Source of the DNA: Patescibacteria group bacterium
GTDB lineage: Bacteria; Patescibacteriota; Minisyncoccia; Phycocordibacterales; Phycocordibacteraceae
Direction of reading: 5' to 3'
NCBI GenBank assembly: GCA_018969385.1
Contig: JAGWYL010000004.1
Span: 1 to 47,579 of the forward strand
DNA length: 47,579 nt
Both the position numbers and the translations under genes were made by a program. Shown one piece after another: positions 7,914-11,932 of the stretch; within the stretch, counting starts at the first letter, position 1; each line of letters opens with the position of its first letter. The notes beneath the pieces were generated by a model. It had not been told where the DNA came from. It made no database searches and was given only the letters and a program-made list of their open reading frames with translations.

Positions 7914-8789
7914 ATGATTGTCGGCATTATCGGCCAAGGAGCGTTCGGCAAGGCCATCCGCGCCGAACTTTCGCGCGGCGGCGTCGAACCGGTCTGCGTG
8001 GACGCGGGCGAGACGCTCGCCGGCAAGGGGCCGTTCGACGTCGTCTTCCTCGCGGTGCCCGCCGCCGCGCTCCCGGAAGCCCTCGCGGATAATCAAAGCG
8101 CGTTTAGGGATGCGCTCGTCGTGAACACCGCGAAAGGCATGGACGAGCGCGGGCGCATGCCGCAGGCCGTCGTCATGGAGGCGCTTTCCGGAATCACCTT
8201 CCGGTATGCCGCCGTGTTCGGGCCGTCTCTTGCGGATGACCTTCTTGCCGGGAGACCCGTGGGCCTCACCATCGCCGCGAAGGACGCTGGAGACCGCGCG
8301 CTCCTTTCGACGCTCCTCGCGAAGGGCAACCTGCTCCTCGACGCGACGGACGACGTGCGCGGCGTCGAGCTTGCGGGCGTCATGAAGAACGTCTACGCGC
8401 TCCTCTTCGGCTACGCGGACGCCATCGAGCTCGGTCGCTCCGCGCGCGCGGCGCTCTTTTCCGCCGCCGTGCGCGAGTTCGAATCGTTCGCGAAGGCCGA
8501 GGGCGCCTCGCCGGACATCGTAAGCTTCGGCGCGCTCGGCGACTTCGCCCTCTCCGCGCTCTCGAACGCGAGCCGGAACCACGCCTTCGGCATGGAGCTT
8601 GCCGCGCTCGCTCCCGCGGACATCGAAAAGCGCGCGGCCGCGAAGACCGTGGAAGGCTACCGCACCGTGCGCATCCTCGCGGACCAGGGCCTCATCACTG
8701 ATGCGTTTCCGCTCCTCTCCGCCGCGCACGCTATCGCCGCCCGCGGCGCGGACGCCCAGCCCCTCGTACGCGGACTCTTCGCGTCGTAG
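7914..8789 (+). CDS. gpsA: NAD(P)-dependent glycerol-3-phosphate dehydrogenase
   Basis: GIIGQGAFGKAI Rossmann motif; NTAKGMD; FGPSLADDL; GVMKNVYALLFGYADAIELG; EGYRTV. Confidence 0.88.
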   Translation: MIVGIIGQGAFGKAIRAELSRGGVEPVCVDAGETLAGKGPFDVVFLAVPAAALPEALADNQSAFRDALVVNTAKGMDERGRMPQAVVMEALSGITFRYAAVFGPSLADDLLAGRPVGLTIAAKDAGDRALLSTLLAKGNLLLDATDDVRGVELAGVMKNVYALLFGYADAIELGRSARAALFSAAVREFESFAKAEGASPDIVSFGALGDFALSALSNASRNHAFGMELAALAPADIEKRAAAKTVEGYRTVRILADQGLITDAFPLLSAAHAIAARGADAQPLVRGLFAS

Positions 8790-8803
8790 CCGGCGAAGGC
8801 ATA

Positions 8804-8832
8804 TTCACAAATCGGGCGCGGGCGTGCATAGT
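8804..8832 (+). promoter_or_regulatory. Putative promoter (TTCACA-N17-CATAGT)
   Basis: Upstream of the first small helical-protein gene; TTCACA recurs at 9637 and 15694. Confidence 0.45.
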
Positions 8833-8875
8833 GCGGACGAACCCTTGAACCTTAACCCAACCGATGGAGGCCACG

Positions 8876-9250
8876 ATGGCTGCTGATGCCTTGCGGCAAT
8901 TCCTGCTTATCCTGAACGACACATACAAGGTCCGGCTTCTCACCTTGCCGCGGGACGGCGGGGACGAAGCGGCTCTCCTTATCCGCGAACGCCTGGACAC
9001 GATTCACGAGCTCTTGTCGACGCTCGAGAGGGACGGCGTCGGACCCGCGCGGACATTCCTCATCGAGCGCAAGCAGGAATGGCTGCGCGCCATCGAATCC
9101 TGGAACCGCGCTCGGGCGCATCCGGAACGCGGGGAGTTCGCCGATGGCGAGATAGCGTTCTACCGGCGGCTCGTCGAGCTTGCGGACGATGCGATTGCGA
9201 GTCTTCGTCCAGGCAAGATTCCGGGAGGCGGAAATGGATACGATGCGTGA
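8876..9250 (+). CDS. Small helical hypothetical protein
   Basis: ATG preceded by GATGGAGG SD; related architecture to the next two genes. Confidence 0.7.
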   Translation: MAADALRQFLLILNDTYKVRLLTLPRDGGDEAALLIRERLDTIHELLSTLERDGVGPARTFLIERKQEWLRAIESWNRARAHPERGEFADGEIAFYRRLVELADDAIASLRPGKIPGGGNGYDA

Positions 9251-9581
9251 CCGCCTTCGCCAGCTGCTTGAGGGCGACCTCTACGTCGCCGCGGAGATCT
9301 GGCGCGTCGCGCGCGCCGAGTATGGGCCGAAGCACATCACCGCGGAGGCGTCCGTGCGCGCATACGGACGCGCCGAAGCCGCGCTCCGCGCGTTCCATGC
9401 GGGCGACGGCATCGCCGTACTCGCGTACTTCCGCGAGGAATACCGGACCGCGCTCCGGAACATCGCGTTCTGGGAGTCGAAGCCGCTTCACACAGACGGT
9501 CGCGCCATGCTCATCGCCGTCTCGCGGACGCGCAAAGCGCAGCTCGAGCTGTTCCTGCCGGGCGCGGAGCATGTCTCATGA
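9234..9581 (+). CDS. Small helical hypothetical protein, likely paralog of the 9698 gene
   Basis: SVRAYGRAEAALRAFHAGDGIAVLAYFREEYR aligned by eye with KVERRQKAIEAYHSGDLARVVRELALTRR; SD GGGAGG upstream. Confidence 0.68.
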   Translation: MDTMRDRLRQLLEGDLYVAAEIWRVARAEYGPKHITAEASVRAYGRAEAALRAFHAGDGIAVLAYFREEYRTALRNIAFWESKPLHTDGRAMLIAVSRTRKAQLELFLPGAEHVS

Positions 9582-9597
9582 CGCTATTCGCCCGGAC

Positions 9598-9631
9598 ACG
9601 TCCCGTCTTCGCTTTGCCGAAGACGGGACGT
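9598..9631 (+). terminator. Hairpin terminator, 14-bp perfect arms
   Basis: ACGTCCCGTCTTCG-CTTTGC-CGAAGACGGGACGT then tcgcttt. Confidence 0.75.
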
Positions 9632-9636
9632 TCGCT

Positions 9637-9664
9637 TTCACAAAATAGATTTTTGTCGTATAAT
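9637..9664 (+). promoter_or_regulatory. Promoter TTCACA-N16-TATAAT
   Basis: Consensus -10 between the terminator and the next SD (gaggaagcgacATG). Confidence 0.7.
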
Positions 9665-9697
9665 CAGCGCAGAGACCGCAAACCGCGAGGAAGCGAC

Positions 9698-10129
9698 ATG
9701 ACCCACGAGAATCCGAACGCGGTCGAGCTCCTGCTCGCCACGCTCATGGAACGCGATTGGAGGGCGTTCAAGGTTGCATACTCGTTCGAGCATAGGACGA
9801 GCATCCCGTACGCGATCGCGAGAGCGAAAGTGGAGCGGCGGCAGAAGGCCATCGAGGCATACCATAGCGGAGACCTCGCGCGCGTCGTCCGCGAACTCGC
9901 GCTCACGAGGCGCGAGCTTTCGGAACCGGCGCGCATCGCCGACGAGACGCTCAAGCTCTTCTACGGAGAGAACCTCGAACGGCTCGACGAGCTCGCCGGA
10001 ACCGAAAGCGGCGAACTTCTCAAGCGACAGCTCGCGGACATGGAGGCCGAGTGCGTCTCGCTCCATACCATCCTTGCGCGCATCGCGGACATCCTTCCGG
10101 ACCTTGAGACCCGCTCGAAGACCGCATAA
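9698..10129 (+). CDS. Small helical hypothetical protein
   Basis: ATG with upstream SD, promoter and downstream terminator. Confidence 0.72.
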   Translation: MTHENPNAVELLLATLMERDWRAFKVAYSFEHRTSIPYAIARAKVERRQKAIEAYHSGDLARVVRELALTRRELSEPARIADETLKLFYGENLERLDELAGTESGELLKRQLADMEAECVSLHTILARIADILPDLETRSKTA

Positions 10130-10133
10130 GCAC

Positions 10134-10170
10134 GTGCCCGCTGACATCCGTCGGCGGGCACCATTTTTTA
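10134..10170 (+). terminator. Intrinsic terminator
   Basis: GTGCCCGC...GCGGGCAC followed by catttttta. Confidence 0.85.
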
Positions 10171-10232
10171 TCCGATCAGCCGAATCTCCCCGCTGAAACG
10201 AACCGCACCCGGACCTCCCCTCTCCGTCCGAC

Positions 10233-10268
10233 ATTCTTATCTTTGGACGGTCGGCGATGGATAAGAAT
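10233..10268 (+). repeat. 36-bp palindromic element, copy 1
   Basis: ATTCTTATC-tttggacggtcggcgatg-GATAAGAAT. Confidence 0.9.
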
Positions 10269-10274
10269 AGCTCG

Positions 10275-10862
10275 CTATCCTTTCGGCAGCATGAAATGGG
10301 CACGGAGCGGCGCATCGCCTTCAAGGCTGTCCACGATGGCGTAGAGCACGCTTCGCCCTATCTTGAGATCGGCCTTAAGCATCGCGACGAAGTCTTCGCA
10401 GTCGTAGGGATACACCCATACGCTGTCCTGAAGACGGAGGAATCCGATATCCGCCATGACGCTGCGCAACTGTGCGCGCACCCTTCGCTGGCGTTCAGGC
10501 ACGTCAAATGCCACCATGCGCCAGCGTCCGTCCCACTTGCGCGGCCGTATGCTTAGCGCAGCCTTCGCTTTTTCAAGCGCGAACGCTCTCTCGCCAGTAG
10601 CGGTGAGCCGCAGGAACTTCATTCCGTTACTCTTCACCCATTTCGCATACCCTTTCGTTACGAGTCGGCCGGCTGCCGTGCGTGCCCGGTACCCGAGCAA
10701 GGCGTCCTGTCCGGGAACGTATTTGAGCAGCTGTAACGTCTTGGGCGCGATTGCCGCCCAGGCAAGCAGTCCTGCGCCCGCAGTCGCCATGAGCACCGCC
10801 GTCTGTATGTTCTGCTTGCGCCGTCGCTTCCGTGCGCCTTCTTCCATCTTTCCCATTCTCAC
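10275..10862 (-). CDS. PaaX-like / Cas2-like-fold regulator common in Patescibacteria (winged-helix-like N-terminal part, Cas2-like C-terminal part)
   Basis: KWDGRWRMVAFDVPERQRRVRAQLRSVMADIGFLRLQDSVWVYPYDCEDFV typical of PaaX central Cas2-like domains; N-terminal TM segment. Confidence 0.8.
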   Translation of the reverse strand: MRMGKMEEGARKRRRKQNIQTAVLMATAGAGLLAWAAIAPKTLQLLKYVPGQDALLGYRARTAAGRLVTKGYAKWVKSNGMKFLRLTATGERAFALEKAKAALSIRPRKWDGRWRMVAFDVPERQRRVRAQLRSVMADIGFLRLQDSVWVYPYDCEDFVAMLKADLKIGRSVLYAIVDSLEGDAPLRAHFMLPKG

Positions 10863-10874
10863 AGCATACGCCGT

Positions 10875-10910
10875 ATTCTTATCTTTGGCCGACCGGCTGT
10901 TGATAAGAAT
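10875..10910 (+). repeat. 36-bp palindromic element, copy 2
   Basis: ATTCTTATC-tttggccgaccggctgtt-GATAAGAAT; same length and orientation as copy 1. Confidence 0.9.
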
Positions 10911-10944
10911 ATGAGGACGCCGACGAACGCTTGTTTATCCGTGT

Positions 10945-11250
10945 TTATCCGAGCGTATAGATATCTATGACCGGCTCTTCGTACGGATGCGCGTCACGGA
11001 TGGCGCGGACGACCTCGCTGACTCGGTCGTCCGCGACCGCCACCTCTATGCGTTCTTCCTCCACTTCTTCCATCTTCCCCACTTCTCCGATTGCCGGGTG
11101 CGCGCCTTCTTCCGGCTTGAAGCGCCCCACGCCGCGCATGCTGAAACTCGCGAACGAGTAGTTCCCGATGCGCCCGCCGCCCGCATCCCCTATTGCCTCG
11201 CGAACTTTCTCCGCATCCGCGACCGGCGTAGTCGTGACAATCTTTTTCAT
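10945..11250 (-). CDS. Stand-alone NIF3/YqfO PII-like insertion-domain protein
   Basis: GNYSFASFSMRGVGRFKPEEGAHPAIGEVGKMEEVEEERIEVAV...IRDAHPYEEPVIDIYTL. Confidence 0.82.
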   Translation of the reverse strand: MKKIVTTTPVADAEKVREAIGDAGGGRIGNYSFASFSMRGVGRFKPEEGAHPAIGEVGKMEEVEEERIEVAVADDRVSEVVRAIRDAHPYEEPVIDIYTLG

Positions 11251-11256
11251 AGTTGG

Positions 11257-11673
11257 CTATGCGGGGCGTATAAAGAACTTTTGACGATGCTTCTCGAATC
11301 TCACTTCGAATAAATCGAAAAAGCGCCGTTGGCCTAAGAGGCAAGCATAAGGCAAGGAAGGCACGAACGTCGCGTCAGTCATGAACGGCGTAAAGCCATC
11401 CACGGTCACGGAAACATCGTGCGTGAACGCATCCCGTCTTTCTCCTGTGACCCCTCCGACGGAAACTGAATTTGAAAACTGTTTGATACTTAGAGCTTCC
11501 GCTAGACTGGCCTCAAGCATCGTACAGTCACAACCTGAGTCAATAAGTGCGTTCACCCGTATCGAACCGCTGTCGCTGCGGAGCTCAACGGGAATTATCG
11601 GACGATAGCCGACCGTCGTGCCTTGAGCGTCCCACTGATATGAAAAGTCAAATTCTTTCCAACGTGCAGCCAT
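11257..11673 (-). CDS. Retropepsin-like aspartic protease
   Basis: VNALIDSGCDCTML (DSG) and LPYACLLGQRRFFDLFEVRFE. Confidence 0.8.
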   Translation of the reverse strand: MAARWKEFDFSYQWDAQGTTVGYRPIIPVELRSDSGSIRVNALIDSGCDCTMLEASLAEALSIKQFSNSVSVGGVTGERRDAFTHDVSVTVDGFTPFMTDATFVPSLPYACLLGQRRFFDLFEVRFEKHRQKFFIRPA

Positions 11674-11682
11674 TGCAGCGAA

Positions 11683-11883
11683 CTAAAACGCGAACGTGAC
11701 GTCGGTAGGCAGAACTTTCATGTAAGTGGCTTCATCGCGGCGGTCGCCAAGCCGGCTGCGCAGTACCGCAAGATCCTCCGCATAGTCAATCACTCGCGTC
11801 TGCTCCGGATTCAATGCAACCCACTTGCGTTCGTGCTCCTTTTTCAGAATTTTTCTGAAATCCACGTTCTGTCCCATACTCAT
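11683..11883 (-). CDS. Small DUF5678-like protein paired with the retropepsin gene
   Basis: KILKKEHERKWVALNPEQTRVIDYAEDLAVLRSRLGDRRDEATYMKVLPTDVTFAF; SD aggaggt upstream of ATG. Confidence 0.6.
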   Translation of the reverse strand: MSMGQNVDFRKILKKEHERKWVALNPEQTRVIDYAEDLAVLRSRLGDRRDEATYMKVLPTDVTFAF

Positions 11884-11932
11884 ATAGTATACCTCCTGAA
11901 ACGCCAGCTGCGCGTAAGCGGGTGCGCAGGCA

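Follow-up and report, generated by a model that had tools for sequence, protein, structure and literature searches.

Contig JAGWYL010000004.1 of a Patescibacteria group bacterium (assembly GCA_018969385.1), whose 47,579 nucleotides form the window analyzed here, carries a gene for a PaaX/Cas2-like protein that is bracketed by two 36-bp palindromes. We interpret palindrome, gene and palindrome as a self-contained mobile unit, which would work like the pair of repetitive extragenic palindromes (REP) and REP-associated tyrosine transposase (RAYT), a 'REPtron', with an unrelated protein of the PaaX fold; the probability of this interpretation is estimated at about 0.55. Comparison of sequences established the architecture of the unit, its breadth, the concerted divergence of its parts, its edges, and insertions of palindromes within genes. 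In the open-access literature, to which the search was confined, no description of a PaaX/Cas2-like gene with palindromes was found, and the results point to a self-contained and probably mobile unit of a kind not described before.

In the window, the gene between the palindromes comprises 195 codons on the minus strand. A preliminary description had placed the two sites immediately outside this gene, with identical 9-bp arms and 18-nt centers. Positions (Table 1), arms and centers are all exact, the centers match at 12 of 18 positions as had been estimated, and the gaps amount to 6 nt on the stop side and 12 nt to the annotated GTG (10862). The chance expectation for two such 36-bp sites in the window is 0.00. 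An ATG at 10856-10854, 18 nt from the upper palindrome, is the likelier start codon because homologs begin with M-G. The same orientation also ascribed to the two sites has little meaning, since they are palindromes (identity 30/36 direct, 28/36 inverted). The palindrome center is more than a plain loop and harbors an additional conserved dyad, G[AC]CG[AG][CT]CG[GT]C; all copies in the window genome share the outer arms and this inner dyad around CG[AG][CT]CG.

Paired palindromes are a trait of the protein family. For each homolog, palindromes of 35-37 bp close to the start codon were paired with those close to the stop codon and the best pair was scored; the pair was picked partly by mutual similarity, and the shuffled controls passed through the identical choice. 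Pairs above every shuffled control were found for 63 of the 69 homologs of the same genus and for 41 of 52 new homologs from other Parcubacteria (Kaiser-, Nomura-, Zambryski-, Adler-, Taylor-, Doudna- and Wolfebacteria as well as further relatives). Homologs do carry flanking palindromes, so that one of the outcomes named in the preliminary description as refuting the proposal did not come about. In a phylum-wide sample, for which counts were read from the listed scores against a control maximum of 38, 17 of 22 short proteins had paired palindromes compared to two of eight long (≥230 aa) PaaX-like proteins; palindrome cores of the short-protein sample include GCGATCGC and ACGGCCGT. Other families of Patescibacteria also carry paired palindromes, mostly with a short (~180-200 aa) protein of winged helix-turn-helix and Cas2 fold.

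The window protein scores 75.1 bits with the Cas2-like domain PaaX_M (PF20803; Pfam cut-off 24), while Cas2 models fall below the cut-off in Pfam (19.3 vs. 23.8) and above it in NCBIfam (26 vs. 24.5). The PaaX equivalog TIGR02277, describing the phenylacetate repressor, is not reached (36.7 bits; cut-off 264.55). In the AlphaFold model (predicted local distance difference test score 84.5), a winged helix is followed by a beta-alpha-beta-beta-alpha-beta domain, and the best match in the PDB is E. coli PaaX (8a39) with a template modeling score of 0.54. An invariant Phe-Asp ends the first strand of the ferredoxin-like domain. A Pfam scan of the window protein gave no Transposase_17/HUH-Tyr domain. 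No cas1 gene or CRISPR array was recognized among the neighboring genes looked at, no dedicated search having been made. The gene is distributed patchily within the genus (24 of 93 genomes) and is often multicopy, with up to 11 copies. A phage or plasmid origin was rejected, since the searches used revealed no relatives in phages, plasmids or IMG/VR.

Edges of the unit became visible when related copies lying in different sequence contexts were compared: in five such pairs, similarity reaches as far as the outer palindrome ends on both sides and no further. Between copies L073 and L085, 33/36 positions agree inside the upstream palindrome vs. 9/20 just outside, and 27/36 inside the downstream palindrome vs. 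5/20 outside. Therefore, the moving unit would be palindrome, gene and palindrome with a length of 655-687 bp. A change of locus is indicated by copy L109 of genome G016, which lies inverted between gyrA and a methyltransferase gene, yet nests within the clade of another locus (support 100/98); G016 also carries a copy at that other locus, with 72% identity. L091 in genome G073 is a similar case. Many copies occupy the same locus as their orthologs, and the clades are mostly locus-specific. In most gene-free genomes, gyrA and the methyltransferase gene occur without a unit between them; for the unit of the window, a precise empty site was not recovered, the junction being too diverged between species. 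Across species of the genus, the interval from gyrA to the methyltransferase gene (window 8027-11932) holds from nothing to ~4 kb and is an insertion hot spot.

The palindromes also change in concert with the gene. Within a gene's own pair, the outer arms agree at 16.6/20 positions, a value somewhat inflated because the pair was selected for similarity, compared to 12.7/20 with the nearest homolog (p = 3e-14), for which protein identity averages 72%; distant members agree at 7.0/20 positions. Arms vary widely among genes (ATTCTTATC, TCTCACTATC, ATCCACAA, GTCGGAATT, TTACCTTA and others). Since the own pair agrees better than that of the nearest homolog, the four half-sites change together, as expected of sites read by one co-evolving protein.

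Palindromes are also found apart from the gene. The window genome (757 kb, 32 contigs) contains four further copies that have no copy of the gene beside them. The arms are perfect in three of these, and the fourth deviates from the relaxed pattern at a single position; a reversed-pattern control gave no match there. All four carry this genome's own arm type, and they are mostly intergenic or at 3′ ends. A coherent regulon was considered and rejected: the sites lie near dinB/purF, folA, guaA and others (gene names assigned by eye) and share no common promoter position. In the genus, pattern searches, whose counts include the bracketing copies, detected the CTATAG core in 9 of 24 gene-carrying and none of 69 gene-free genomes (p = 1e-6), and the CGRYCG core in 13 of 24 and 3 of 69, respectively (p = 4e-7), the latter three being doubtful short matches. 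The palindromes are therefore nearly restricted to gene-carrying genomes; a wide spread without the gene, which had been named as counting against the proposal, was not observed. Across genomes, the best-matching unit resided in the same genome for 11 of 36 solitary sites (4.5 expected, permutation maximum 14).

Some solitary palindromes have entered coding sequences. In UvrC of three genomes (G116, G066, G016), the palindrome forms a 13-codon in-frame insertion at one position, which is missing from the other aligned relatives. In-frame palindromes are also located in UvrB of G016, within 25 residues that solved UvrB structures lack, and in loops of two further proteins, RarA (G016) and HolB (G066); for RarA, HolB and a second position in UvrC, insertion is less sharply shown because loop length varies there. 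Other repeated peptides (for example GSTLNPNSQGRTL, SWTSDIHGGRGYPMST and PLDFARGKPA) were observed in the same variable linkers of UvrC, UvrB, RarA and HolB (L320-L349, L290, L381-L439). These are also present in genomes without the gene and look like further in-frame repeat families.

A possible start codon directly adjoins the upstream palindrome in 68 of the 104 bracketed genes. A 5/6 match to TATAAT lies close ahead of the start in 45 of these, most often at a distance of 6-8 nt; the enrichment is modest because 27 downstream palindromes, tried in both orientations, also reach 5/6. From this placement, a leaderless promoter that lies within the palindrome or next to it seems likely, and autorepression would be the natural reading.

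According to the proposed mechanism, the protein of ~190 aa, consisting of a winged helix and a PaaX/Cas2-like dimerizing domain, would recognize the 36-bp palindrome, with two winged helices reading the outer arms and the Cas2-like dimer reading the central CGRYCG/CTATAG core. It would repress itself, since its promoter, probably that of a leaderless mRNA, lies next to the upstream palindrome or partly within it. Both palindromes would represent the ends of the unit, which may now and then move to new loci, as supported by unit edges and phylogeny. Single palindromes spread to intergenic DNA and, as the comparison with relatives shows, in frame to protein linkers. Protein and palindrome diverge jointly, so that every unit would have a specificity of its own. 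We infer binding of the palindromes, autorepression and mobilization by the protein. The protein probably mobilizes its palindromes, catalysis or guidance of the movement being the main unproven step. That it is itself the mobilizing enzyme, a new class of DNA-moving protein with a Cas2 fold and with 36-bp palindromes as its target, which relocates its own unit of ~670 bp and seeds solitary palindromes in frame into genes across Patescibacteria, is a tentative proposal to which we give slightly less than even odds.

Several observations weigh against a mobile unit driven by its own protein. No nuclease or transposase motif is demonstrated in the PaaX/Cas2-like protein, and its fold match is a transcription repressor. 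Movement must be rare, because orthologs at a few loci make up most of the copies. No target-site duplication is visible at the unit edges, for which there was no empty site close enough at the nucleotide level. Solitary sites match the unit of their own genome only moderately, and since other repeated peptides share the same protein loops, a general palindrome-spreading process could act.

In a rival view, another enzyme or replication slippage spreads the palindromes as a non-autonomous repeat, with the PaaX-like gene as a passenger or a domesticated binder carrying two of them. The repeats in the loops of UvrC, UvrB, RarA and HolB and the moderate own-genome match fit this view, but gene-free genomes have hardly any palindromes of these types, bracketing is constant across the phylum and the four half-sites change in concert, so that we regard it as rather unlikely. 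A plain autorepressor that binds both palindromes as operators, perhaps with looping, controls itself and a few sites, and is inherited vertically and lost without ever being mobile would account for the PaaX fold, the upstream palindrome over or beside a -10 box in many homologs and the mostly locus-specific clades. It does not account for units at different loci ending at their palindromes, for solitary sites inside coding genes and at 3′ ends, or for the downstream site, which in the window faces a convergent gene and has no promoter to serve; we consider it unlikely. Transcription terminators or RNA hairpins are very improbable: the palindromes do fold as hairpins (computed as single-stranded DNA), but one copy precedes the start codon and terminator-like hairpins of relatives sit further downstream, and an intrinsic terminator was rejected because of the missing T-run after the palindromes and the lack of an Rfam match. 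The preliminary description had offered autoregulatory operators or the ends of a small mobile or REP-like unit with a product that recognizes these sites. Both gained support and are not mutually exclusive, autoregulation because the upstream palindrome overlaps the putative promoter; the mobile unit is favored because of the unit boundaries and the solitary copies inside genes.

Table 1. Positions of the unit and its parts in the window.
Feature	Position	Strand	Length	Remarks
Whole unit, palindrome-gene-palindrome	10233..10910	-	678 bp	Homologous units at other loci stop at the outer palindrome edges
Upstream palindrome, ahead of start codon	10875..10910	-	36 bp	Orthologous sites upstream of homologs in G028, G088, G066, G073
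Putative -10 box TATGCT	10863..10868	-		6 nt ahead of ATG; predicted leaderless mRNA; similar layout in many homologs
PaaX/Cas2-like protein gene, from likely ATG	10275..10856	-		PF20803 PaaX_M 75.1 bits; AlphaFold model; PDB match 8a39
Downstream palindrome	10233..10268	-	36 bp	6 nt past stop codon

Further features were noticed in the window and in relatives. A gene for a retropepsin-like aspartyl protease (PF13650; 11257-11673) is located between gyrA and a P-II/CutA-like gene. Near the start of the 9578 open reading frame, an inverted repeat (9598-9631) whose perfect 14-bp arms (ACGTCCCGTCTTCG/CGAAGACGGGACGT) stand 6 nt apart is a possible terminator, and the true start of this frame would therefore be further downstream. 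In G073:C10, two palindromes of the gyrA-locus type (L289:2502 and L289:3968) surround an exonuclease III-like gene beside a tyrosine-recombinase-like gene, a possible cargo version of the unit (gene names assigned by eye). Two near-identical palindromes in G016:C5 (L288:2823 and L288:6499) with arms GTTCGTTATC are part of a longer repeat (~185 bp) and enclose 3.7 kb; this arm type also occurs in G066 and G003, and no matching PaaX-like unit was found.

If the proposed mechanism is true, Patescibacteria harbor a phylum-wide family of minimal mobile units with a protein related to Cas2 and PaaX, which would link a transcription-repressor fold and a CRISPR adaptation protein to DNA mobility. To our knowledge, few transposons are known from Patescibacteria, and we know of no transposase to which the PaaX/Cas2-like protein is related. 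The in-frame entry of short palindromes into proteins of DNA repair and replication would be a route of protein change, for which Rickettsia has been the best-known case so far. Because protein and palindrome occur in many natural pairs, the recognition code would also be directly testable.

REPs are extragenic by definition, whereas the palindromes studied here have in-frame copies in uvrC, uvrB, rarA and holB of relatives. Otherwise the layout resembles REP/RAYT (TnpA-REP), where one gene is always flanked by two palindromes (PMC2817692). Shared features are the single gene between two palindromes, solitary palindromes dispersed in the same genome, although at low copy number here (6 in the window genome), and the joint divergence of gene and palindrome. 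The protein differs, being a Y1/HUH transposase (Transposase_17) there and an unrelated PaaX_M protein of the PaaX fold here. Rickettsia palindromic elements (RPE) are palindromic units in frame within unrelated protein genes (PMC10969869), similar to the 13-codon insertion in UvrC of three genomes. Compared by length, they measure ~100-150 bp vs. 36 bp here, and the units of this study include a gene that their own palindromes bracket. With the PaaX repressor, the protein shares the PaaX_M Cas2-like domain and fold, the winged helix and a predicted operator at its own promoter, but it is short (~190 vs. ~300 aa), multicopy, patchy and bracketed on both sides. With Cas2 it shares the ferredoxin-like domain with the invariant Phe-Asp, but here this domain is fused to a winged helix, and the Cas2 score is below the cut-off in Pfam and above it in NCBIfam. 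The unit belongs to neither REP/RAYT nor RPE, as the transposase domain is missing and the sizes differ. Its layout is REPtron-like and hence of a known kind; it would be categorically new if the Cas2-like protein were proved to move DNA.
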